DNA of 64,000 nucleotides from Roseobacter sp. HKCCD6576-2 (GTDB lineage Bacteria > Pseudomonadota > Alphaproteobacteria > Rhodobacterales > Rhodobacteraceae): NCBI RefSeq assembly GCF_013179285.1, contig NZ_WVNW01000001.1, positions 1,302,001 to 1,366,000 of the forward strand, given 5' to 3'. How positions within the stretch are numbered: position 1 is the stretch's first letter; each line of letters starts with the position of its first letter. A program made the translations under genes and the position numbers. A model generated the notes under the pieces. It saw only the letters and a program-made list of their open reading frames with translations. It was not told where the DNA came from and did no database searches. Below, in pieces: positions 5,767 to 20,694 of this stretch.

Positions 5767-6552
5767 ATGCGCTTACGCGACACTTGCTATGTTCTTGTTT
5801 TCGGCTTGTTGCCAGGGATGGCGGCGGCTCAGGCCGGGCCAACTGTGACGGTTGGTGCGATGACTTTGACGCCGCAATCCGAGTTTCTTGAACCGATCGA
5901 GCCCGAGACCCAAGCGCCGCGGGTGAGCCTGCGGCCGCTATCGCGACCGGAATGGGCGATGCCCGATATGATGTGGGATGGCCACCCGCGTGGTGCACGA
6001 TGGAGTCTTGCCGTCATGGGCGCGCTCAGAGGGCATGGCGCCGGTCTTATGGATGTGGTGCCCGAAGATATCGAGGCTTGGTGCCCGGCCTATGAAGCGG
6101 CGGATCGGGCGCAGCGCGCGGCCTTTTGGGCCGGGCTTACGTCGACGCTGGCGTTTCATGAAAGCACCCATCGGCCGCGAGCGGTCGGCGGCGGCGGGCG
6201 CTGGTTCGGCCTGGTGCAGATCGCGCCCGGCACGGCGCGCTGGCGCAATTGCGAGGTGCGGTCGGGCCAGGCGCTGCTGGATGGCGCAGCCAATCTGCGG
6301 TGCGGCATTCGGATCATGGCCATCACTGTGCCGCGCGACGGGGTGGTCTCAGAAGGGATGCGCGGTGTAGCTGCCGATTGGGGGCCATTTCATTCGCGGC
6401 GGAAGCGCGAAGAGATGCGGAATTGGGTGCGTCAGCAAGATTATTGCCGTCCACCCACACGGCCGCAAATCCGACCGGTCGGGCTGGTGCCAGAGCCGGT
6501 TTTGCCGGTGCCGCGACCTGAACCTTTCGCGGGTCTTGCAGAAGCGGGTTAA
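5767..6552 (+). CDS. Secreted lytic-transglycosylase/lysozyme-like protein (paralogue 2)
   Basis: A 261-residue protein with a Sec signal peptide (MRLRDTCYVLVFGLLPGMAAAQA, cleavage after about residue 23) in place of the lipobox of its neighbour. The start at 5767 has GGAGG about 10 nt upstream. The catalytic core repeats paralogue 1 almost phrase by phrase: CPAYEAADRAQRAAFWAGLTSTLAFHEST, AVGGGGRWFGLVQIAPGTARW, ANLRCGIRI, VPRDGVVSEG, KREEMRNWVRQQDYC. The HEST glutamate is the likely catalytic acid. A proline-rich 40-residue tail (LVPEPVLPVPRPEP) is unique to this copy. Role in peptidoglycan cleavage is inferred. Confidence 0.8.
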   Translation: MRLRDTCYVLVFGLLPGMAAAQAGPTVTVGAMTLTPQSEFLEPIEPETQAPRVSLRPLSRPEWAMPDMMWDGHPRGARWSLAVMGALRGHGAGLMDVVPEDIEAWCPAYEAADRAQRAAFWAGLTSTLAFHESTHRPRAVGGGGRWFGLVQIAPGTARWRNCEVRSGQALLDGAANLRCGIRIMAITVPRDGVVSEGMRGVAADWGPFHSRRKREEMRNWVRQQDYCRPPTRPQIRPVGLVPEPVLPVPRPEPFAGLAEAG

Positions 6553-6959
6553 CCCTCGCGCACGGGGACCCCGCGATTGGTGGCTTCACGGATCAACACG
6601 GTCGGGTCGGGCACAGCCATGTGATGCAGCTTCACCTCGGTCCCATCGGTCATCACGATGGTGCATCGCGTCGGGCCATCCCCGTCATAGACACGCAGAT
6701 GCGCGATCGATCGCGCGGGCAGGCTGCGGTCGCGCGGACCTTCAAAAATATGCCAACACTCGGGGGATAAATGCAGCCCATAAACCGGGGTTACAACGAT
6801 TTGCCAGAAGCAGACGCAAAGCGCGGGGATCAGCAACAACAGCACCAATCCCGGCACGGACTGCCATAGAAAAGCGGTCAATAATACCAGGACTCCAAAG
6901 GCCGTGGCACTCAAGGCAAGATTGCCCGGACGGGCACGATATTCAAAGTCACTGGTCAT
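6549..6959 (-). CDS. Small membrane protein, unknown function
   Basis: A 136-residue protein. I chose the ATG at 6959 (MTSDFEYRARPGN), which overlaps the end of the upstream acyltransferase gene by 11 nt; the longer frame to 7148 has no support. Two closely spaced hydrophobic helices occupy about residues 18-60 (ATAFGVLVLLTAF and GLVLLLLIPALCVCFW), followed by a soluble domain of beta character (GLHLSPECWHIFEGP, RCTIVMTDGTEVKLHHM). This hairpin-plus-PH-like layout is reminiscent of DUF2244-type proteins, but I cannot assign it. The overlap implies translational coupling with the acyltransferase. Confidence 0.7.
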   Translation of the reverse strand: MTSDFEYRARPGNLALSATAFGVLVLLTAFLWQSVPGLVLLLLIPALCVCFWQIVVTPVYGLHLSPECWHIFEGPRDRSLPARSIAHLRVYDGDGPTRCTIVMTDGTEVKLHHMAVPDPTVLIREATNRGVPVREG

Positions 6960-7902
6960 GGCCGTTGCATAAGAAAGTATTGAGCCTGCAATGTGGCGTG
7001 TCTGGGGAAAGCTTAGGCCCAACCTTGGCCAAAGATGGGCGGCTGGCCCGCAGCAGAGAAAACCCGTGAGTCCGCTCGCGTCCGCCCAACGCCAGGGTTC
7101 GGGCGCGCAGCATTTCGATCGCAGATGGGCCATCGGCAGGTAAGGCACTGGGCGCGATGGCCGCGCCTATATTGATGCGGAACGGTTGGCGGGCCTTATT
7201 CAGCGTTTCATAAAAGAGCGTGATGTCGCGCAAGCTGGGGTGCAGCGCATCGAAGGCGTAAAACAGGGCGGAGTTGCGGGCGCAGATATGAACCGGGATC
7301 ACCGGAAGCTCGAATCTCCGGGCGATCATTGCCGCCGAACCCATCCACGGGCGCTCCTCTAGCCGCAGACCGTGGCGTTTGGCGAGCCGCCCCGATGGGA
7401 AGATCACACCGATCCGCCCCGCGTCCAGCGCGCGATGCAGCCCGTGCATCGTCGCGCGGGTTTTGGCATAGCACCGTTTCTCAGTACGCCATTCCACCGG
7501 GAGGATGAGATCGGCCATCTGTGGTAAGACGCGCAGGATATCCGCATTTGCCATGATGAAGCTGTCATTGCGGCGCCGGGCGATGAGATGGTGCAGGATA
7601 ATCCCATCGGCAATCCCGGTCGGGTGGTTCGCGACGATCAGAGCGGGCCCCTCCGTCGGGATATGGGCGAGGCCCCGAACTGTGACATCTTGCGCGATCA
7701 GACCGGCCAAACGAGCCATGATCTCTGGCATCGGCAAGGGGCTAAGTGTCTCGCCCAAATCCAAGGTACGATTGTAGGCCAAAAGCATGTTCAGCAACGC
7801 GCGCACGTGCCGCGTCCCGGGCCTGTCGGAGAACAACCAGGGTGCCCGTTCGGCAATCAAAGGATCGGTGCGAGCCGCGATGGTCATAAGGCGCAAAAAC
7901 AC
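6949..7902 (-). CDS. PlsC-type lysophospholipid/1-acylglycerol-3-phosphate acyltransferase
   Basis: A 317-residue acyltransferase-like protein. The active-site block reads VANHPTGIADGIIL (near residue 90), where His and Asp are separated by five residues instead of the usual four, the spacing of the NHPxGxxDG subgroup. A second block, PSGRLAKR, matches motif III (substrate phosphate binding), and VIPVHICARNS resembles motif IV. It probably transfers acyl chains to a lysolipid at the inner membrane. GTG at 7902 or ATG at 7887 could be the start; neither has a strong ribosome site. It is coupled to the small membrane protein downstream and divergent from the DUF1624 gene. Confidence 0.8.
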   Translation of the reverse strand: MFLRLMTIAARTDPLIAERAPWLFSDRPGTRHVRALLNMLLAYNRTLDLGETLSPLPMPEIMARLAGLIAQDVTVRGLAHIPTEGPALIVANHPTGIADGIILHHLIARRRNDSFIMANADILRVLPQMADLILPVEWRTEKRCYAKTRATMHGLHRALDAGRIGVIFPSGRLAKRHGLRLEERPWMGSAAMIARRFELPVIPVHICARNSALFYAFDALHPSLRDITLFYETLNKARQPFRINIGAAIAPSALPADGPSAIEMLRARTLALGGRERTHGFSLLRASRPSLAKVGPKLSPDTPHCRLNTFLCNGHDQ

Positions 7903-8013: not shown

Positions 8014-8751
8014 ATGAGAGCACAATCAGAAATCAGCGTTCCAGGCCGGATCGTGGCCTTGGATTTGGCCCGCACGGCGGCGCTCGCCGGCATGGTGATC
8101 TATCATTTCATCTTCGATCTGGCGCTGTTCGGCTATGTGCCGCCAGAAACGGCCGTCACCGGTGGCTGGGCGCTGTTTGCCAAGCTGGTTGCGGGCAGCT
8201 TTCTGTTCCTGGCGGGGGTAAGCCTATGGTTGGCGCATGGGCGCGGCATCCGCTGGCCTGCGTTCTGGCGGCGGATTGCGATGGTTGGCGGCGCGGCGGC
8301 ATTGATCTCTGTGGCGACCTATGTGGTTATGCCGCAGAGTTTTGTTTTCTTTGGCATTTTGCATTCCATCGCGCTGTGCAGTGTGATCGGGTTGGCGTTT
8401 CTGCGGCTGCCGGTTTTGGTCACTCTAGCGGTGGCAATGGGCGTGTTTTTCCTGCCGCAATATGCGCGGTTCGAGATGTTCAATGCGCCCTGGTTCTATT
8501 GGACCGGGCTGGGCACGAGTTGGCCGCCGACAATTGACTATGAGCCGGTGTTTCCGTGGCTGGCGCCGTTTCTGGCGGGCCTGGCGCTGACGCGGTTTGT
8601 CGATCTTTCCGGGTGGATGCCGCGCCCGCATGTGCCGGGGCACACCGCCCGGCTCTTGGCGTGGCCGGGGCGGCATTCGCTGATCTTGTACCTGGTCCAC
8701 CAGCCGGTGCTGATCTCTGGGCTGTGGCTAGTGACCCAGGTGATCCGCTAG
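8014..8751 (+). CDS. DUF1624 / heparan-alpha-glucosaminide N-acetyltransferase-like membrane protein
   Basis: A 245-residue polytopic membrane protein. The N terminus (GRIVALDLARTAALAGMVIYH, split by the first helix) is the characteristic start of the DUF1624/HGSNAT catalytic family, with a conserved His in the first helix; about seven hydrophobic helices follow, and the C terminus has the HSLILYLVHQPVL motif (second conserved His near the end). Family members move acyl groups across membranes, but the substrate here is unknown. It converges on pepN with a 4-nt overlap and is divergent from the PlsC-type gene. Confidence 0.82.
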   Translation: MRAQSEISVPGRIVALDLARTAALAGMVIYHFIFDLALFGYVPPETAVTGGWALFAKLVAGSFLFLAGVSLWLAHGRGIRWPAFWRRIAMVGGAAALISVATYVVMPQSFVFFGILHSIALCSVIGLAFLRLPVLVTLAVAMGVFFLPQYARFEMFNAPWFYWTGLGTSWPPTIDYEPVFPWLAPFLAGLALTRFVDLSGWMPRPHVPGHTARLLAWPGRHSLILYLVHQPVLISGLWLVTQVIR

Positions 8752-11348
8752 CCGCGCATCCGTGCGACCATTTCCGAGAGATCGGGGCTGAGGCCTTCAG
8801 TGTCGGCGATCCGCGCGAGTTGGCCCTGGATCAGGGCCTGCCGATCGGCGTCATAGCGGCGCCAAGTCTCAAAGGCGGTGGACATCCGCGCGGCGGTTTG
8901 CGGGTTGAGGTGATCGAGCCGGATGAGCCAGTCGGCCAGGAAGGCATAGCCCGCGCCGGAGGGGTCATGGAACCCCGCCGGGTTGCCGGCGGCCAGACCA
9001 CTGACCAAAGCGCGGAACCGGTTGGGGTTCTTCCAGTCAAAAAGCGGATGCGCGGTGAGGGTTTCGGCGATGGCCACGGCCTGATCCGGCGCGGCGAGGC
9101 TCACTTGCAGGGTGAACCATTTGTCCATCACCAGCCGGTCATCCTGCCATTGATCATGGAACCGCGTGGCAATCTCGGCGTGGCCAAGCTCCAATAGGCT
9201 GGCGAACCCGGCCAGTTGATCGGTCATGTTGCTGGCCGCATCGTAATGGGCCTTTGCGCGCGCCCCGCCATCCAGATGCGCGGTGAGCGCCAGGGCCGTG
9301 TTGCGGAGCGCGCGTTTGCCCGCTTGGCTGGCCTCGGGGCTGTAGCTGGGGCCGGGGTCCATTTCGGCGTAAAGGGTATCGAGCACTGGCTGTAGATGCG
9401 ACCCAATCGCCTGGCGCAGGGTCTTGCGCGTGCTGTGGATCGCCAGCGGGTCTGGCACGATCCCGGCATCGACAGCGCCTTGCGCAAGGTCATCCTCTGA
9501 GGGAAGGGCCAAAGCCAATGCCCGGAAATCGGGATCGAGGCTGTCATCGCTGGCCACGCGCGCCAACCCATCCAGGAAGACCGGCTGTGGCCTTGCACCG
9601 TCGGCCAACATGCCCAAAAGCGTCTCGCGCGCCAGGCTGCGCCCGGCCTCCCACCGGTTGAACGGGTCGGTGTCGAACGCCAAAAGCAGCGCGCGATCCT
9701 CGAAACTTGGCTGATGATCCAAAATCACCGGCGCGGAGAACCCCCGCAGGATCGACGGGATGGGGCAGGCGCCGAGCCCGTCGATCACAATCTCGGCCTC
9801 CGCTTCGGCCAGTTCGATCACCTGGGTCGAGTGTGTTTCCGTGCCATCGGGCGCCAAAAGGCCAAATGCAACCGGGATCACCGCCGGAGCCTTCTCCGGT
9901 TGGTCCGGCGTGGGCGCCACCTTCTGCCGAAGGTGGAGCGTATAGGTGCCGTCTTTAAATCGGTCGCTGACATGGACGCGGGGCGTGCCCGCTTGGGTGT
10001 ACCAGCGTTTGAACTGGCCGAGATCGCGGCCCGTGGCGTCTTGGAACACCTTGAGCCAATCCTCGATGGTGCAGGCTTGGCCGTCATGCCGCTCAAAATA
10101 GAGGTTCAGCGCGGCATCATAGGCCTCCGCCCCGACGAGGAGGCGCAGCATGCGGATCACCTCCGCGCCTTTCTCATAAACGGTCGCGGTGTAGAAGTTG
10201 TTGATTTCGATATAGCTTTCCGGGCGGACATTATGGGCCAGGGGTCCAGCATCTTCGCGGAATTGCCGCGCGCGCAGCGTCAAGACGTCTTCGATCCGCT
10301 TCACGGGAGCTGAGCGCATATCGGCGGTGAATTGTTGGTCGCGGAAGACGGTGAGGCCTTCTTTCAGGCAAAGTTGAAACCAATCTCGGCAGGTGATCCG
10401 GTTGCCGGTCCAGTTGTGGAAATATTCATGCGCGATGATCCGTTCGATGAAGTCGAAGTCGCGATCCGTGGCGGTTTCGGGTGAGGCCAGAACATATTTG
10501 GAGTTAAATATGTTTAAGCCTTTGTTCTCCATCGCGCCCATATTGAAGTCATCGACGGCAACGATGTTGAAAATGTCTAAGTCATAAGCGCGGCCATAGA
10601 CCTTTTCATCCCAGATCATCGACCGTTTCAGCGCGTCCATCGCGTAATCGCAGCGGTCTTCATCGCCACGCCGGACCCAGATGTTGAGCGCGACGTCGCG
10701 GCCCTCCATCGTGGTGAATGTGTCCGAGACAGCGATCAGATCACCCGCGACCAGGGCGAAGAGATAGGCGGGTTTGGGCCAAGGGTCGTGCCACGTGGTG
10801 CTGGAAACCGCGCGGTTTCCAGCCGGATTTTTCGAAAAATCCGCATCACCCGGGTTGCCATTGGACAACATGATCGGGAGATCGCTTTCAATTGTGACGG
10901 TGAAGGGCGCCATGACGTCGGGCCGATCCGGGTAATAGGTGATTTTGCGGAAGCCCTCGGCCTCGCATTGCGTGCAATACATCCCGTTGGACATATAGAG
11001 CCCTTCGAGCGCGGTATTCGCCTCGGGCGCAATTTCCACCTCGGCCTCCCAGATGAAGGCCGGGCCGGGCAAATGGGCGGCAGGCACGGTTAGGCCAGTT
11101 TTGGTTTGAACATACTGGGTGGCATCGAGCGGCGTTCCGTCGATGGTCACCGAGATCACTTTCAGATCCTCGCCATCAAGGGTCAGGTCAGCCCCATCAA
11201 CGCCGTCTGGGTTCGTGCGAAAGGCGATCCGGGCCCGCACGCGTGTCGCCTTGGGATCGAGACGAAAGGTCAACGCCACTTCATCGACCAGATGATTGGG
11301 CGGGCGATAGTCGGAAAGATGGATCGGTTGCGGGGCAGCGTCGGTCAC
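8748..11348 (-). CDS. pepN: Aminopeptidase N (M1 zinc metallopeptidase)
   Basis: An 866-residue M1-family alanyl aminopeptidase. The open frame runs to 11531, but GTG at 11348 (encoding the start of MTDAAPQPIHLSDYRPP) has AAGGACG about 7 nt upstream and gives the usual PepN length. The exopeptidase motif GAMEN occurs in NMGAMENKGLN, the zinc site HEYFHNWTGNRIT (HEXXH plus downstream Glu in KEGLTVFRD) is intact, and the C-terminal DUF3458 helical domain is complete. It removes N-terminal residues from peptides in the cytosol. The gene stands alone, divergent from glcB with 181 nt between starts. Confidence 0.95.
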   Translation of the reverse strand: MTDAAPQPIHLSDYRPPNHLVDEVALTFRLDPKATRVRARIAFRTNPDGVDGADLTLDGEDLKVISVTIDGTPLDATQYVQTKTGLTVPAAHLPGPAFIWEAEVEIAPEANTALEGLYMSNGMYCTQCEAEGFRKITYYPDRPDVMAPFTVTIESDLPIMLSNGNPGDADFSKNPAGNRAVSSTTWHDPWPKPAYLFALVAGDLIAVSDTFTTMEGRDVALNIWVRRGDEDRCDYAMDALKRSMIWDEKVYGRAYDLDIFNIVAVDDFNMGAMENKGLNIFNSKYVLASPETATDRDFDFIERIIAHEYFHNWTGNRITCRDWFQLCLKEGLTVFRDQQFTADMRSAPVKRIEDVLTLRARQFREDAGPLAHNVRPESYIEINNFYTATVYEKGAEVIRMLRLLVGAEAYDAALNLYFERHDGQACTIEDWLKVFQDATGRDLGQFKRWYTQAGTPRVHVSDRFKDGTYTLHLRQKVAPTPDQPEKAPAVIPVAFGLLAPDGTETHSTQVIELAEAEAEIVIDGLGACPIPSILRGFSAPVILDHQPSFEDRALLLAFDTDPFNRWEAGRSLARETLLGMLADGARPQPVFLDGLARVASDDSLDPDFRALALALPSEDDLAQGAVDAGIVPDPLAIHSTRKTLRQAIGSHLQPVLDTLYAEMDPGPSYSPEASQAGKRALRNTALALTAHLDGGARAKAHYDAASNMTDQLAGFASLLELGHAEIATRFHDQWQDDRLVMDKWFTLQVSLAAPDQAVAIAETLTAHPLFDWKNPNRFRALVSGLAAGNPAGFHDPSGAGYAFLADWLIRLDHLNPQTAARMSTAFETWRRYDADRQALIQGQLARIADTEGLSPDLSEMVARMRG

Positions 11349-11529
11349 GGGACGTCCTTGTTTGAGCGGTTTCGACGGACGGTAGGCCAGCGCCGGGGCG
11401 GCGTCCAGCGCCGTATATTGGCGATGTTTTCTCGTATTGGTAAAAGGAGTTGACCGGTTTTCTTGCCTCTGGCTGGGTTTCGCGCTAAGTGCGCGGAAAC
11501 CGAGATGCATTGCGAAGAGAGGGGAGAGC

Positions 11530-13665
11530 ATGACCGAGCGGGTTGAACGCGCTGGGCTGCAGATTGCGGCTGAATTGGTGGATTTCCTGGAGGCCGAGGC
11601 GCTGCCGGGGACAGGTGTTGCGCCAGAGGCGTTTTGGGACGGCTTCGCCGGGCTTTTGGCTTGGGGAACGCCGAAAAACCGCTCCCTTCTTGAGACCCGT
11701 GAGACCTTGCAAGAGCAACTCGATGCCTGGCACCGTGAGCGGCGCGGGCAGGGTCATAATGCGGCGGCTTATGAGGCGTTTCTGCGCGAGATCGGGTATC
11801 TGGTGCCCGAGGGGGCGGAGTTTGCCATCGAGACTGGCAATACCGATCCGGAGATCGCCGAGATCGCCGGGCCGCAATTGGTCGTTCCGATCACCAATGC
11901 GCGTTATGCGCTGAACGCTGCCAATGCGCGGTGGGGCAGCCTTTACGATGCGCTTTATGGCACCGATGCGATGGGGGATCTGCCCCAGGCCGGTGGCTAT
12001 GACCCGGCGCGGGGGGATCGCGTGATCACCTGGGCGAAAGGCTTCCTGGATCAGGCCGCGCCCTTGGCCGATGGCAGCCATGCGGATGTGACGGGCTATG
12101 TGGTTGCGGGCGATGCCATGACCCCGGCGCTGGCCGACCCGGCGCAGTTCGTCGGCGCCAATCACGCCGAGGATGGAACGCTGACCGAGCTGGTGCTGCG
12201 TCATAATGGGCTCCATATCGCGGTGCAGATCGACCGGAATGGCGCGATCGGGAAAGTCGATCCGGCGGGGGTCAATGACGTGCTGTTGGAGGCGGCGCTG
12301 TCGACGATTATGGATTGCGAGGACTCGGTGGCTTGCGTCGACGCCGCCGACAAAGTTGTGGCCTATCGTAACTGGCTCGGGCTGATGCGGGGCGATCTGA
12401 CCGAAACCGTTGCAAAGGGCGGCAAAAGCTTCACCCGGGCGTTGAATGCAGATCGCACCTGCGTGAAGGCGGGCGAGACGGTCACGCTCAAAGGCCGGTC
12501 GCTGATGCTGATCCGGAATGTCGGGCATTTGATGACCAATCCGGCGATCTTGGATGGCGATGGCCATGAGGTGTTCGAAGGGCTGATGGATGCGATGATC
12601 ACCACGCTGATCGCGCGCCATGACCTGCAGAAGACCGAGGGCGCACGGAACTCGGTCAAAGGGTCGGTTTATGTGGTTAAGCCGAAGATGCATGGGCCGG
12701 AGGAAGTGGCCTTTGCCGATGAGATTTTCACCCGCGTGGAGGCGGCTTTGGGCCTGCCGCAGCATACAGTGAAGCTCGGGATCATGGATGAAGAGCGGCG
12801 CACCTCGTCGAACCTGAAGGAGTGTATCCGGGCGGCGAAACACCGGGTGGCCTTCATCAATACCGGGTTCCTGGACCGGACGGGCGATGAGATTCACAGC
12901 TCGATGGAAGCCGGACCGATGTTGCCGAAGGGTGACATGAAATCAACGGCTTGGATCAGTTCCTATGAGGACCGGAATGTCGATATCGGGCTGGCCTGCG
13001 GGTTGCAGGGCAAGGCCCAGATCGGCAAAGGCATGTGGGCGATGCCCGATTTGATGGCGGCGATGCTGGAACAGAAGGCTGGCCACCCGAAAGCCGGCGC
13101 CAACTGCGCTTGGGTGCCGAGCCCGACGGCGGCGACCTTGCACGCGACGCATTATCATCAGGTGGACGTGTTTGCGGTGCAGGATCAGATTAAATCTGGC
13201 GGTGCGCGGGGCAGTTTGAGCGATCTCTTGACCATTCCGGTGATGGATGGGCGGAACTTGAGTGCTGATGAGATTGCCCAGGAGATCGAAAACAACGCTC
13301 AGGGTATTCTGGGCTATGTGGTGCGCTGGGTGGATCAGGGCGTTGGCTGTTCGAAAGTGCCGGATATTCATGATGTGGGTCTGATGGAGGATCGCGCGAC
13401 TTGCCGGATCAGCTCGCAAGCCCTGTCGAATTGGCTGCATCATGGGGTTGTGTCCGAAGAGCAGGTGATGGCGGGCATGCGCAAGATGGCGGAGGTGGTT
13501 GACCGTCAGAATGCCGGTGATGCGCTCTATGAGTCGATGGCGCCGGGGTTCGATGGCGTGGCGTTTGCCGCGGCGTGTGATTTGGTCTTCAAGGGCCGGG
13601 TCCAGCCGAGCGGTTATACCGAGCCGGTGCTGCATGCGCGGCGGTTGCAGAAGAAGGCGGCCTGA
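11530..13665 (+). CDS. glcB: Malate synthase G
   Basis: A 711-residue malate synthase of the large, monomeric G type, which condenses glyoxylate with acetyl-CoA. The frame is open upstream, but the ATG at 11530 ([11 protein letters not shown]) has a GGGGAGAG ribosome site immediately before it. Visible signatures include the [16 protein letters not shown] segment with the catalytic acidic residues, [29 protein letters not shown] and the [23 protein letters not shown]-like block. The next gene is a GlcG/HbpS homologue, echoing the glcGB order of glycolate operons; glcDEF are not present in the window. Confidence 0.96.
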
Positions 13666-16292: not shown

Positions 16293-17885
16293 CTAGCCGT
16301 AGAGCCGCAACATCTCTTGCAGGTCCTCGAAGGTATTGGCCTCTTGCACGGGCTTATCCTTGCGCCAGCGGGCCATGCGGGGGAAGCGGAGCGCGACGCC
16401 GGATTTGTGCCGGGGGCTGGCCTGAATGCCCTCAAACGCGATCTCGAACACATGTTGCGGGGTGACCGCGCGGACCGGGCCGAACCGTTCCAGGGTGTTT
16501 TTCCGCACCCAAGCGGTGATTTCACGAAACTCGGCGTCGGTTAGGCCGGAATAAGCCTTGGTGAAAGGCACCAGATCATTGTCTTTCCAGACCGCGAAGG
16601 TGAAATCGGTGTAAAGCGTTGCGCGGCGGCCCGACCCGGCCTGGGCATAGATCATCACCGCATCGATGGTCAGCGGATCGACTTTCCATTTCCACCAATC
16701 GCCTTTCTTGCGGCCCGAAAGATAGGGGGCAGAGAGGCGCTTCAGCATCAGACCCTCGGCGCCGACCTCGCGGCTGATCTCGCGCGCGGCGGTCAGATCG
16801 GGCCAGTCGGTTGCCGGCACAGCCGCAGAGAGGCGTAGCGGTGACCCAGGCGGCAGATCGGCGATGATCGCCTCCAGCGCGGCGCGACGATCCGCCAAGG
16901 GCTGCGCGCGGATATCGGCACCGTCTTTTTCCAAGAGGTCATAGGCCATCAGGATCACCGGGGCCTCGGCCAGCAGTTTTTTCGGCACGGTTTTGCGACC
17001 AATCCGGGGTTGCAACCGGGCAAAGGGCAGCGGTTTTTCATCGGCGAAGGCCAAGACCTCTGCATCGATCACCGTGCCATCTGGCAGGAAGTCCTTTAGT
17101 TGCGCCAATTCCGGAAAGCGATCGGTCATCAACTCTTCGCCGCGCGACCACAGGAAATGCTGCCCTTCGCGCAAGATGAACTGGCCGCGAATACCGTCCC
17201 ATTTCCGCTCGGCCAGCCAATCGCTGACCGGGCCGAGGGCTTCGGGGACGCCGTCCAGTTGATAGGCCAGGTAGAACGGGTAGGGGCGGGAGAGATCGGC
17301 GCTCGGGTCCGGCGTCTCGATCAAGGCGTGATAGCTGGTGGTCTCGGGCGTCCAATTGCCCATCAGCCGGTGGGTCAGATCAGGTTCATCCATACCCGTG
17401 GCTTGCGCCAGCGCCCGCGTCATCAGTTTCTGGCTCACCCCCATGCGCCAGCCGCCGGTGATCAGTTTGTTGAACACAAAGCGCTCTGTTGGTGGCAGCT
17501 GATCCCAAGCCGCTGTGATCGCGGCCTTTTTCTCCTCTTCCTCCGCCTTGTCGAGGCTGCGGAGGGTGGTGATCCAATGGGTGAGTGTATGGTCGCTGGT
17601 CTGCGTCGCGGGTGGCAGCACCAGCGCGATGGTCTCGCTGAGATCGCCCACGACAGGGTAACACTCCTCGAACAGCCATAGCGGGATGCCGGCCACTTCT
17701 GCGGCCCATTCGCGGAGTTTGGTTGTGGTCACGGTTCGGCGTGGTCGGCGGCCAGACAGGAGCGCGATGGTCCAGAGTTTGTCATCATCGGGCGCGGCGC
17801 GGAAATAGGCGGCGAGGGCCGCGGTTTTGACGCTGGTTTTGGTGGTTTGGTCCAGCGCGGTGAAAAGGGCGGCGAAACGGTTCAT
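16293..17885 (-). CDS. ATP-dependent DNA ligase, cisplatin-damage-response type
   Basis: A 530-residue single-chain ATP-dependent DNA ligase. The adenylation motif is AERKWDGIRG with the nucleophile Lys228; motif III lies in DAEVLAF, motif IV in EGLMLKR, and motif V in WWKWKVDPLTIDAV. The N-terminal ~200 residues form the ligase DNA-binding domain. This family (about 530 residues, TIGR04120 as I know it) usually travels with an Lhr-like helicase, the ligase-associated exonuclease and a phosphoesterase; here only the exonuclease is close. ATG at 17885 overlaps the stop of the upstream signal-peptidase-like gene by 4 nt, so the three genes form a coupled unit. Confidence 0.93.
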   Translation of the reverse strand: MNRFAALFTALDQTTKTSVKTAALAAYFRAAPDDDKLWTIALLSGRRPRRTVTTTKLREWAAEVAGIPLWLFEECYPVVGDLSETIALVLPPATQTSDHTLTHWITTLRSLDKAEEEEKKAAITAAWDQLPPTERFVFNKLITGGWRMGVSQKLMTRALAQATGMDEPDLTHRLMGNWTPETTSYHALIETPDPSADLSRPYPFYLAYQLDGVPEALGPVSDWLAERKWDGIRGQFILREGQHFLWSRGEELMTDRFPELAQLKDFLPDGTVIDAEVLAFADEKPLPFARLQPRIGRKTVPKKLLAEAPVILMAYDLLEKDGADIRAQPLADRRAALEAIIADLPPGSPLRLSAAVPATDWPDLTAAREISREVGAEGLMLKRLSAPYLSGRKKGDWWKWKVDPLTIDAVMIYAQAGSGRRATLYTDFTFAVWKDNDLVPFTKAYSGLTDAEFREITAWVRKNTLERFGPVRAVTPQHVFEIAFEGIQASPRHKSGVALRFPRMARWRKDKPVQEANTFEDLQEMLRLYG

Positions 17886-18565
17886 TCGGGCGCCGTCTGA
17901 TAGGGCACGGGGGTCTCCAACGTGCCGAGGATCAGATGTAGACCGATGAAGCCGGGCCCGCCGCGCGAGAGGCTGACCCGACTGTCGCGCGCAAGGTCGC
18001 GATGATCGCCAAGGGTGAAGACGTGATCCTCTGGGACGGTGAACAGGGGTGTATCATCGAAGCGATGCCCCTCGGTCAGGTTCAGAATCGGATAGCTGGC
18101 ACCGTTGGGCAGCGTTTCCAGGTTTTGCGGGATGTCACATGTTGGAGCGGTGTCAGGTGTCTCGGCAGGGCAGGTGGGCAAGGCACCGGTGGCGTCCGCT
18201 CGGCGCTGGATGGTGAATGGCGGGAGGGGGGCTATCGTCACTGGCGTGGCGTCGATATGGAGAAGGCCGCCGATCATCTGAACGGTTTGACCTGGCAGGG
18301 CGACGACACGCGCCATCTCGATCCGGCCCTGGGTTTGATGGGTGTAGAGGATCACGTCGCCAGGCTGCGGGTCGGCCGCGCCGGGGAAGATGCGTTCAGA
18401 CACGGTGCAGAGGCCGCGGGGCACGGTGGGCGACATCGCCTCGGTCTCCGGGGAGAAGCTGCGATGGGTGCCGATGGTGCAGCGCAGGCAGAAGCAGAAC
18501 TCTTGTGCGAGCGCGGGGGCCGCTATGACCATCAGGGTTAAGGCGAGGCCAATTTGTCGGATCAT
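17882..18565 (-). CDS. Signal-peptidase-I-like (S26) periplasmic protein lacking the catalytic Ser/Lys dyad
   Basis: A 227-residue S26-fold protein. Instead of transmembrane anchors it has a cleavable signal peptide (MIRQIGLALTLMVIAAPALA), so the domain should be periplasmic. Box B, normally S-M-x-P-T, reads A43-M-S-P-T-V. Box D, normally K-R-x-V-x-x-P-G, reads M-A85-R-V-V-A-L-P-G. Box E is intact (GDHRDLARDSR, residues 186-196). Both catalytic positions are thus Ala and peptidase activity is unlikely. Six cysteines (CFCLRC at 24-29, C53, C132, C143) suggest disulfides or metal binding. It overlaps the exonuclease gene upstream and the ligase gene downstream by 4 nt each. Fold assignment is good; role is unknown. 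Confidence 0.82.
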   Translation of the reverse strand: MIRQIGLALTLMVIAAPALAQEFCFCLRCTIGTHRSFSPETEAMSPTVPRGLCTVSERIFPGAADPQPGDVILYTHQTQGRIEMARVVALPGQTVQMIGGLLHIDATPVTIAPLPPFTIQRRADATGALPTCPAETPDTAPTCDIPQNLETLPNGASYPILNLTEGHRFDDTPLFTVPEDHVFTLGDHRDLARDSRVSLSRGGPGFIGLHLILGTLETPVPYQTAPE

Positions 18566-19575
18566 TCCGTGACCTCCGCATCCTGTGGGTCATCAAGCGT
18601 TTCGCCGCCGTAATCGGTCTCAACAATGCCCGCGTCATAGCCTTGTTCGGTCAGCCAACGAGAGAACTGAGCGGTATAGCCGTGGGTGACAAAAACCCGT
18701 TCTGCACCAGTGGCTTCAACGGCGGCGTTCAGCCCGCTCCAATCGGCGTGATCCGAGATCACAAAACCCCTGTCGGCGGCGCGGCGGCGGCGCACACCGC
18801 GAAGCCGCATCCAGCCTGAGGCAAAGCTGGTCGAAGCCGCCCCAAAGCGGCGCATCCAGGCCGAGCCGAGTGCTGAGGGCGGGGCGATAACCATCGCGCC
18901 GGGAAAGGCTTTGGCATCGAGATCGGGGGTGACATTGGTCGTCTCCGGCAGAGACAGGCCCTGGGCGCGGATCACCTGATTGGTCGCCTCGATCGCGCCG
19001 TGGGTCAGGATCGGGCCGATGGCCGGGTCCAGCAGGCGCAAGACCCGCTGCGCCTTGCCAAGGGAATAGCATCCCAAGATCGAGGCGCGCCCGGCGGCGA
19101 CATTTTCCGCCCACCAGGCGTTGATTTCTTGCGCCAAGCTGGCTTGGTCGGGCCAGCTATAGATCGGCAGTCCAAAAGTGCTTTCAGTGATGAATGTGTG
19201 GCAGCGGACGGGCTCGAACGGTTCCGACAGCCCGTCATCAATGGTTTTGTAATCACCCGACGCGACCCAAACCTCGCCCGCCACCTCGACACGGATCTGG
19301 GCTGAGCCCGGGACATGGCCGGCGGGGTGAAAGCTGACGGTTGCGCCGCCGATCTCGCGGGTCTCGCCATAGGTGATTGTTTTTAAGGGAATATCACCCA
19401 ACCGGTGGCGCAGAACCGGGGCCGCGCTCTCGGTCGCGAGATAGGCTTGGTGACCGGCGCGCGCATGATCGGCATGGCCATGGGTGATCAAGGCGCGCTC
19501 CACCGGTCGCCAGGGGTCGATATAGAAATCGCCAGCCGGGCAGTAGATGCCACGATCGGTGAAGGTGAGGACCAT
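18562..19575 (-). CDS. Ligase-associated DNA exonuclease (SNM1/Pso2-like MBL nuclease)
   Basis: A 337-residue metallo-beta-lactamase/beta-CASP-type nuclease of the family that accompanies the cisplatin-type ligase (TIGR04122 as I know it). ATG at 19575 (MVLTFTDRGIYCP) has GGAAAGG upstream and gives the usual length. The metal motif HGHADH lies near residue 34, followed by FHPAGHVPGS, ASGDYKTIDD and a late VISDHADW. It is thought to process damaged DNA ends with the ligase. It is the first gene of a coupled trio (exonuclease, S26-like protein, ligase). Confidence 0.92.
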   Translation of the reverse strand: MVLTFTDRGIYCPAGDFYIDPWRPVERALITHGHADHARAGHQAYLATESAAPVLRHRLGDIPLKTITYGETREIGGATVSFHPAGHVPGSAQIRVEVAGEVWVASGDYKTIDDGLSEPFEPVRCHTFITESTFGLPIYSWPDQASLAQEINAWWAENVAAGRASILGCYSLGKAQRVLRLLDPAIGPILTHGAIEATNQVIRAQGLSLPETTNVTPDLDAKAFPGAMVIAPPSALGSAWMRRFGAASTSFASGWMRLRGVRRRRAADRGFVISDHADWSGLNAAVEATGAERVFVTHGYTAQFSRWLTEQGYDAGIVETDYGGETLDDPQDAEVTE

Positions 19576-19626
19576 GCGCTGCCTTTCCGTTGCCCGATCC
19601 AAGATAGGGCGCGAGACGGGCGGCGG

Positions 19627-20694
19627 CTACTCCTCTTCCTCGTCCTGCGGGATCAATGTGATCGTACCGGCCTCCTGCAATTCGCGGATCGCAGTGACAA
19701 TTTCGGCCATCGCCGCCTCGCCCTCTCTAAGCCGGGGCGTGCCGAATGTTTCGGCCTCTTCGCGCAGTTGTTCGGCCATCCGTTTTGACATGTTTTCGAA
19801 CAGGAACTCGACGGCGATGGGGGATTCCACCATGCCCGAAGCGAAGGCGACGACGGTTCTTTCCGGGTCGATCTGGCGCAAAACCTTGGGCACATCCGTC
19901 GGTTTCAGGCGCTTTGGAATATGATCAAAGGTAAAGATCGCCTTGCGAACGGCTTCGGCAAAGCTGGCATCGCGCGTTTCAAGCCCGTCCATGATGGCGT
20001 CGCGGATCGAGCCTGAAGCGGCATTCAGGATTGCGCCGATCCGGTCGACAGCGCTGTCGTTAAAGGCGGCCTTGGGTTTGTTTTCAAGCTGGGTAAGTAA
20101 GGTTGCGCCGATCCGGTCCACCATTTCGGGGGAGACTGTGCCGGTGAGCGAGACCGCATGGGCGATCACTTCGGCCCGATCCTCGGGCATCTTGCCAAGC
20201 AGGGTCGCGGCGCGCGCGACGTCGAGCTTTGAAAGCAAGATTGAGCACACTTCGGCACTTTCTTGGGCGATGAGCGGTGTGAGCTCCTCATCATCCAGTT
20301 CCGCGAGTTGGGTCCACGGATCAGCCGGAACATTGGCATTTGCCTCGGCCAGCAAGCCGTCGCGGGCGTTGGAGGAGAGATATGGCTCCAACAAAGCGAG
20401 CGCGTCCGGCAGACCGTCCGGAAATGTGAGCGCGAGATTGTCGAGCGCGGATGTGAACTCCTGCACGACACTGGCCAATGTCACGCGATCGATATGGCTG
20501 AGCGTGGCCATATATCGCGCGAGGCGTTCTTGTTGTTGCGGGGTCAACCGGTCCAACGCCAATGCCACATCTTCGGACAGAAGCAGCCGAACGATCACGG
20601 CCGCCTTTTGTCCGGAGCTCAACTTTCGCACTCTCAACCGCCCGCCGACCCCTTCGGCGACCGGGTCATCTATCAAATCGGCATCCCGCAGCAT
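19627..20694 (-). CDS. Flagellar motor switch protein FliG-like, divergent
   Basis: A 355-residue FliG homologue. Residues ~25-115 match the N domain (SSGQKAAVIVRLLLSEDVALAL), ~130-230 the middle domain and the rest the C-terminal torque domain (DHIPKRLKPTDVPKVLRQIDPERTVVAF). The middle-domain EHPQ motif that binds FliM reads ESAE (ESAEVCSILLSKLDVARAATLL). The tail is very acidic (QDEEEE). No other flagellar gene lies in the window; the upstream ligase cluster is on the same strand but 51 nt away. It may be a working alphaproteobacterial FliG or a paralogue; the isolation and motif change leave this open. Confidence 0.82.
   Translation of the reverse strand: MLRDADLIDDPVAEGVGGRLRVRKLSSGQKAAVIVRLLLSEDVALALDRLTPQQQERLARYMATLSHIDRVTLASVVQEFTSALDNLALTFPDGLPDALALLEPYLSSNARDGLLAEANANVPADPWTQLAELDDEELTPLIAQESAEVCSILLSKLDVARAATLLGKMPEDRAEVIAHAVSLTGTVSPEMVDRIGATLLTQLENKPKAAFNDSAVDRIGAILNAASGSIRDAIMDGLETRDASFAEAVRKAIFTFDHIPKRLKPTDVPKVLRQIDPERTVVAFASGMVESPIAVEFLFENMSKRMAEQLREEAETFGTPRLREGEAAMAEIVTAIRELQEAGTITLIPQDEEEE

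Follow-up and report, generated by a model that had tools for sequence, protein, structure and literature searches.

In Roseobacter sp. HKCCD6576-2, a gene for an apparently exported protein with the fold of a type I signal peptidase is placed between two genes of a DNA repair pair. This arrangement raises the question of what such a protein does and whether it belongs to the repair unit at all. We analyzed the locus within a window, that is, the whole stretch of 64,000 nucleotides (contig NZ_WVNW01000001.1, positions 1,302,001 to 1,366,000), and window coordinates are used throughout. The gene occupies positions 17882 to 18565 on the reverse strand and encodes 227 aa. According to NCBIfam, it is preceded by a ligase-associated exonuclease (TIGR04122, 487.8 bits for a cut-off of 325; 18562 to 19602, reverse strand), whose listed reading frame starts with TTG and may have its true start later, and followed by an ATP-dependent DNA ligase (TIGR04120, 653.6 bits for a cut-off of 400; 16293 to 17885, reverse strand). 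An ATGA stop/start overlap joins the exonuclease gene to the gene under study (18562 to 18565, reverse strand), and a second one joins the latter to the ligase gene (17882 to 17885, reverse strand). An earlier note on this DNA had stated the two identities, both 4-nt overlaps and the presence of six cysteines in the protein, all of which proved accurate. Upstream of the exonuclease gene, a three-domain FliG homologue (FliG_N, M and C) was found at 19627 to 20694 on the reverse strand, with a relative at the same place in loci L086 and L147.

A signal peptidase fold with both catalytic residues replaced

The protein was compared with LepB, the type I signal peptidase (MEROPS family S26). In Pfam, it matched Peptidase_S26 (PF10502) with an E value of 1.9e-16, and in NCBIfam it reached 60 bits for sigpep_I_bact (TIGR02227). 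Since this score is over the cut-off of 47 bits, annotation with this NCBI model would label the protein as an active signal peptidase. Its homology to type I signal peptidases extends over residues 34 to 217. The only other match in the genome at an E value of 10 or less was a canonical LepB (261 aa) in which Ser and Lys are both present. When the two were aligned, Ala43 was opposite the catalytic Ser and Ala85 opposite the Lys, so that both dyad residues are replaced; the claim of an S26 homologue with alanines at these two places was therefore borne out by Pfam, NCBIfam and the LepB alignment alike. In the numbering of Escherichia coli signal peptidase I (SPase I), Ala43, Ala85 and Ala192 stand at Ser90, Lys145 and Ser278, respectively. 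Box E, described earlier as intact, is so only in part: GD, R and DSR are retained, while His188 is found at the place of Asn274 and Ala192 at the equivalent of Ser278, a residue that, according to passages of PMC4049620, stabilizes the Lys in the E. coli enzyme.

A substitute nucleophile at Ser36, Ser38 or Ser45 with a Lys nearby was considered and rejected: none of the three aligned with the nucleophile, Ala43-Met44 lay on the Ser-Met of LepB, and the protein has no Lys among its 227 residues. The piece of the related protein from G208 has none either. Given the mean of 2.56% Lys over the 44 open reading frames (ORFs) of the window, the chance of finding no Lys was 0.0028; low lysine is nevertheless unremarkable in this window because seven of the 44 ORFs, including this one, contain less than 0.8%, and one of these seven is 600 aa long with a single Lys.

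The N terminus consists of one hydrophobic stretch followed by a putative cleavage site between ALA and QE, which we read by eye as a likely cleavable Sec signal peptide of residues 1 to 20 (18506 to 18565, reverse strand); relatives start similarly. By the same reading, the signal peptide stands in place of the membrane anchors of LepB. The C-terminal part of LepB is missing. The six cysteines are at positions 24, 26, 29, 53, 132 and 143. Compared with LepB, the protein shares the fold, the box E core and the Cys132-Cys143 pair, but it lacks the Ser/Lys dyad and a Ser278 equivalent, and it has an additional CxCxxC motif and probably also an additional Cys53.

A structure predicted from a seven-row alignment had a mean pLDDT of 71.6 and a pTM of 0.70, with values of pLDDT below 50 at residues 17 to 36, 51 to 62 and 218 to 227, the first two of which are cysteine regions. 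The top matches of this model in the PDB, found with Foldseek, were E. coli signal peptidase I (E value of 2.3e-8, TM score of about 0.5), and chains of SipA from Streptococcus pyogenes were at ranks 22 to 24 (E values of 1.9e-3 to 3.5e-3). A sequence search of solved structures returned a single weak match, again a signal peptidase (E value of 0.0016). Taken together, the sequence comparisons support the view that the product is a putative catalytically dead S26 homologue. We also considered a phage origin, which was rejected as PHROGs gave only one weak match (E value of 0.013). A tblastn search with the protein against 72,556 plasmid records gave matches in 19 records, all below 60% identity, two of them covering at least 80% of the query.

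A patchy class of anchor-less, cysteine-rich S26 proteins

A profile of ten members was searched over 394 Rhodobacteraceae genomes (393 genera). Among the matches listed, ten scored 258 to 312 bits, these being the profile's own rows, and the next scored 201 bits. An eleventh member, from G221, had a score inside the LepB range (184 bits) and was admitted for its build, with a signal-peptide-like start, CxCxxC and the C-terminal part missing. The anchor-less, signal-peptide-bearing and cysteine-rich class is thus present in 11 of the 394 genomes. Searches within genera added G394 and G395 (three of six genomes in that genus) and G781, G783 and G787 (four of 13), and in further genera members were found in one of two, one of 12 and one of one genomes. 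A congener of the window strain, G167, had a LepB-type match only. The 16 members analyzed here are therefore those of the window, G333, G394, G395, G206, G781, G783, G787, G340, G304, G208, G243, G218, G364, G003 and G221. In 385 Alphaproteobacteria genomes, none besides that of the window passed an E value of 1e-50, a threshold that weaker members would escape. In the mostly open-access literature searched, we found no description of an anchor-less, cysteine-rich S26 class in Rhodobacteraceae.

In a tree with eight LepB-type rows, the split between the class and LepB was supported at 100/98; when 34 of 60 different LepB-type rows were used, the grouping of all 13 short rows on one side had a support of 57/95. 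The inner branching order is unsure because several end branches are long. The branch leading to the window protein itself is long, at 1.28 and 2.35 in these trees, and its amino acid composition is odd. Three side observations were made during these comparisons. The S26 gene of G208 (L035, around 5695) has an in-frame TAG within the signal peptide stretch, which means that either the gene is broken or the sequence contains an error. A contig of a viral collection (IMGVR_UViG_2537561733; L179, 2914 to 3555) encodes an S26-like protein whose start resembles a signal peptide and in which, as judged by eye, Ser is kept and His replaces Lys. Loci L075, L076 and L077 carry a second, shorter LepB-type gene with an intact dyad in tandem with LepB, adjoining an ORF named by eye as rnc-like (RNase III).

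The class has been far more faithful to its cysteines and to box E than to its dyad. The pattern GD[HN]RD...DSR was found in 16 of 16 members and CxCxxC in 13; Cys53 and Cys132 are present in all 16 and Cys143 in 15. Ser is kept in seven of 16 members and Lys in two (G364 and G243), and at least one dyad residue has been lost in 14, including the window protein. As two members retain the full dyad, the class is not dead throughout. On the tree with eight LepB-type rows, which holds 13 of the 16 members, the fewest changes were two for the Lys state and four for the Ser state. Variation occurs even within one genus: in G206, G783, G787 and G781, the Ser place reads S, N, S and N and the Lys place D, D, D and N, with constant cysteines and box E.

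We then compared conservation in 15 members with that in 16 LepB rows (15 drawn from a set of 50 and the genome's own LepB, which was among those drawn and was thus counted twice, leaving 15 different rows). Where the class varied at positions invariant in LepB, these belonged to the anchor and the C terminus and to the strands of boxes B and D. Specifically, positions 37 to 43, 80, 82, 84 and 85 were shared by at least 15 of the 16 LepB rows and varied across the 15 members. Going by E. coli SPase I and, in part, by passages of PMC4049620, the box B and D strands presumably line the substrate cleft. Whether Cys53 is absent from LepB is uncertain, since its column aligned once with a LepB Cys and once with a Phe. 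With signal peptide ends judged by eye, every mature protein except that of G364 has an even number of cysteines (15 of 16 members), and a single N-terminal Cys accompanies Cys53 in the G333/G395 lineage. For these two reasons, we ranked a metal site below disulfides.

The nearest precedents for such proteins would be SipA of S. pyogenes and SpsA of Staphylococcus. As far as the passages of PMC4049620 go, SipA lacks the dyad, has no peptidase activity and retains the cleft, and pili cannot polymerize without it; by analogy, it would be the best precedent for a noncatalytic S26 protein with a job. Both it and the window protein have the S26 fold with the two catalytic residues and Ser278 replaced. 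SpsA is called inactive in a review (PMC12445088), and like the window protein it is a second S26 homologue beside an active one, with two catalytic residues missing; going by its published description, the window protein differs from it by the cysteine motif and export signal. One explanation for the window protein, modeled on SipA, is that a dead S26 protein keeps its peptide-binding cleft and assists one particular exported protein, either as its chaperone or in its assembly. The need for SipA in pilus polymerization despite its missing Ser and Lys and the presence of its chains among the fold matches speak for this explanation, but the positions listed above vary in the class despite being constant in LepB. 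Moreover, SipA is a surface protein of a Gram-positive pilus system, whereas the window protein comes from the Rhodobacteraceae and has no evident anchor, and no adjoining pilus gene was found. No pilus family appeared in a Pfam run on 20 proteins (17 neighbors, two junction inserts and one member), the neighbors being a minority of the ORFs listed around the 16 members. Because conservation of the strands near the old active site seems lower than a role of the cleft would ask for, SipA and the window protein may work differently, and we consider a SipA-like role possible but rather unlikely.

Next, selection on the S26 genes was estimated by the Nei-Gojobori method. Six pairs were available in the G206 genus, two with a finite dS and four synonymously saturated. 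For G206-G783, in which Lys is missing from both proteins and Ser also from one, dN/dS was 0.12 (95% interval, 0.08 to 0.19); therefore, dead members can be under purifying selection. G787-G781 gave 0.11 (0.08 to 0.22; 312 of 500 resamplings usable) at a dS of 2.56. Neighboring genes in the same genus evolve more slowly than the S26 gene, with values of 0.03 to 0.05 for rlmE (six pairs) and 0.04 to 0.06 for ppx (three pairs). The S26 genes of G333 and G394 differ by four synonymous and two nonsynonymous changes, too few to judge, and between G333 and G395 the amino acid identity was 52% for the S26 protein versus 86% for the exonuclease and 85% for the ligase. The window copy gave 0.30 against G333 and 0.31 against G394, both at a dS above 2, and an undefined value against G395, and these figures are for that reason unusable as a measure of constraint.

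The long branch of the window protein and its poorly measurable dN/dS would also suit a gene in decay, that of a onetime peptidase that no longer has a function, in this genome at any rate, as would the congener with only a LepB-type match and the in-frame TAG in G208. Against this, the frame is open with gene-like codon positions, all six cysteines and the box E core are retained at 31 to 39% identity to nine relatives, and purifying selection acts on one pair of dead relatives. We thus regard decay as unlikely. The description of the product as a catalytically dead, exported S26 paralogue has support from its sequence, with the dyad gone in it and in the three other members found at the same junction, and from the selection on that dead pair.

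The exonuclease-ligase junction

The exonuclease-S26-ligase trio was found in the window, G333, G394 and G395, representing two of the 11 genera, with ATGA overlaps at both ends in each case. The earlier note had asked whether the trio and its Ala/Ala state recur. The trio does, and none of its four S26 proteins keeps the dyad, an outcome in favor of the note, but the replacing residues differ (Ala/Ala in the window, Gly/Phe in G333 and G394, and Ala/Phe in G395). The full Ser/Lys dyad is kept by relatives outside this operon (G364 and G243). Three other genomes of the genus of G333 (G396, G397 and G398) have the exonuclease and ligase genes joined directly, as does G221, in which the S26 gene is located elsewhere.

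We examined the best 80 of at least 548 confirmed relatives of the exonuclease, a set that may not include the window's own record; 78 of them hold a ligase. No insert larger than 400 bases was present at 71 of the 78 junctions, 62 of which were joined by ATGA and nine otherwise. The other seven junctions contained an insert, which was an S26 gene in one (L110) and an alpha/beta hydrolase gene in six (L086, at 6142 to 7029; L119; L123; L130; L134; and L147). The inserts of L086 and L123 belong to Abhydrolase_3 in Pfam; three others are 63 to 80% identical to those two, and that of L147 is 39% identical. All six hydrolase genes begin at the ATGA of the exonuclease gene, and at their downstream end three overlap by ATGA, two by GTGA and one by TTGA. 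L086 and L147 have seven ORFs in common with the neighborhood in the window, with the hydrolase in place of the S26 gene. The flanking genes of the window are members of the TIGR04122/TIGR04120 pair, of which an S26 gene, present at one of 78 junctions, is not a constant part. On the best tree, the trio requires two changes, and a single origin was not rejected (p-AU of 0.258); one or two insertions are therefore possible.

Elsewhere, the S26 gene has other neighbors: it is flanked by pepN and malate synthase (G340 and G304) or by hisG and a DUF1489 gene (G208 and G243), or it adjoins FtsJ and Ppx (the four genomes of the G206 genus), kynureninase and an L-PSP gene (G218) or other genes (G364, G003 and G221). 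No constant neighbor was found around the members looked at. In the window, pepN and malate synthase, whose identities were confirmed by comparison, lie side by side at 8748 to 13665, some 4 to 6 kb from the S26 gene with none between them; in G340 and G304 (L032 and L034), the S26 gene is between the two.

These results bear on the proposal that the protein was recruited to the repair operon as a partner of the ligase and exonuclease, acting as a binding or redox factor. The trio with its 4-nt overlaps in two genera, with the dyad lost in all four cases, is what such a partner might leave. However, at an E value of 1e-10, the exonuclease is absent from seven of the nine non-trio genomes that have the class (one per genus), and overall it is found in 213 of 394 genomes versus four of 11 with the class, without excess co-occurrence (Fisher p of 0.36). 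Furthermore, 77 of the 78 junctions have either no large insert or a hydrolase. The S26 protein also bears a likely export signal, whereas the ligase and exonuclease are taken to work on cytoplasmic DNA. A role in DNA repair is thus not supported, and we hold such a partnership to be very improbable. The second option of the earlier note, in which the gene is coupled to the pair but not functionally linked to it, is the better fit: the window gene is most likely a passenger beside repair genes. That a second genus has the trio too, again with these overlaps, could mean that the position brings a benefit.

Cleavage by means of other residues, such as His188 or Thr41, can hardly be credited: the fold is kept and His is common at the place of Asn274 (nine of 13 class members), but the same His occurs in the dyad-intact second LepB-type copy of L075, the place of Thr41 is variable (T, Q, A, S or G), and the window protein has no Lys at all.

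A proposed secreted binding module in a shared slot

The explanation that we favor, and consider probable, is an exported and likely disulfide-rich S26 pseudo-peptidase that would bind without cutting and is encoded as a coupled passenger at the exonuclease-ligase junction. The protein would be exported via Sec and its signal peptide trimmed by the genuine LepB of the genome. Disulfides might link the N-terminal cysteines with Cys53, and Cys132 with Cys143 as in LepB, stapling the new N terminus to the core; the structural model lends them no support because its cysteine regions (residues 17 to 36 and 51 to 62) fall below a pLDDT of 50. In the periplasm, the protein may bind a partner without cleaving it. 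The binding surface would probably be away from the old cleft, since the fold core, box E and the cysteines are best conserved, rather than the strands around the former active site. The position at the junction would provide translational coupling with no role in DNA repair, in a slot that also takes another gene.

More tentatively, the class may be a secreted, cysteine-stapled binding module derived from the signal peptidase fold in these Gram-negative bacteria, in which the active site became dispensable and changed more than once, and the exonuclease-ligase overlap may be a slot in which unrelated genes land repeatedly and are coupled by 4-nt overlaps without harm to the pair.

The window protein thus presents a known fold in a state that is uncommon, as a cysteine-rich and probably secreted S26 pseudo-peptidase whose class is patchily distributed. 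This class forms a natural series from an intact dyad to the loss of both residues, partly inside one genus, in which the transition from a peptidase to a nonenzyme can be observed. Tight packing in a repair operon need not mean membership in it, as this junction is empty in some relatives and is occupied in others by an alpha/beta hydrolase gene or an S26 gene.
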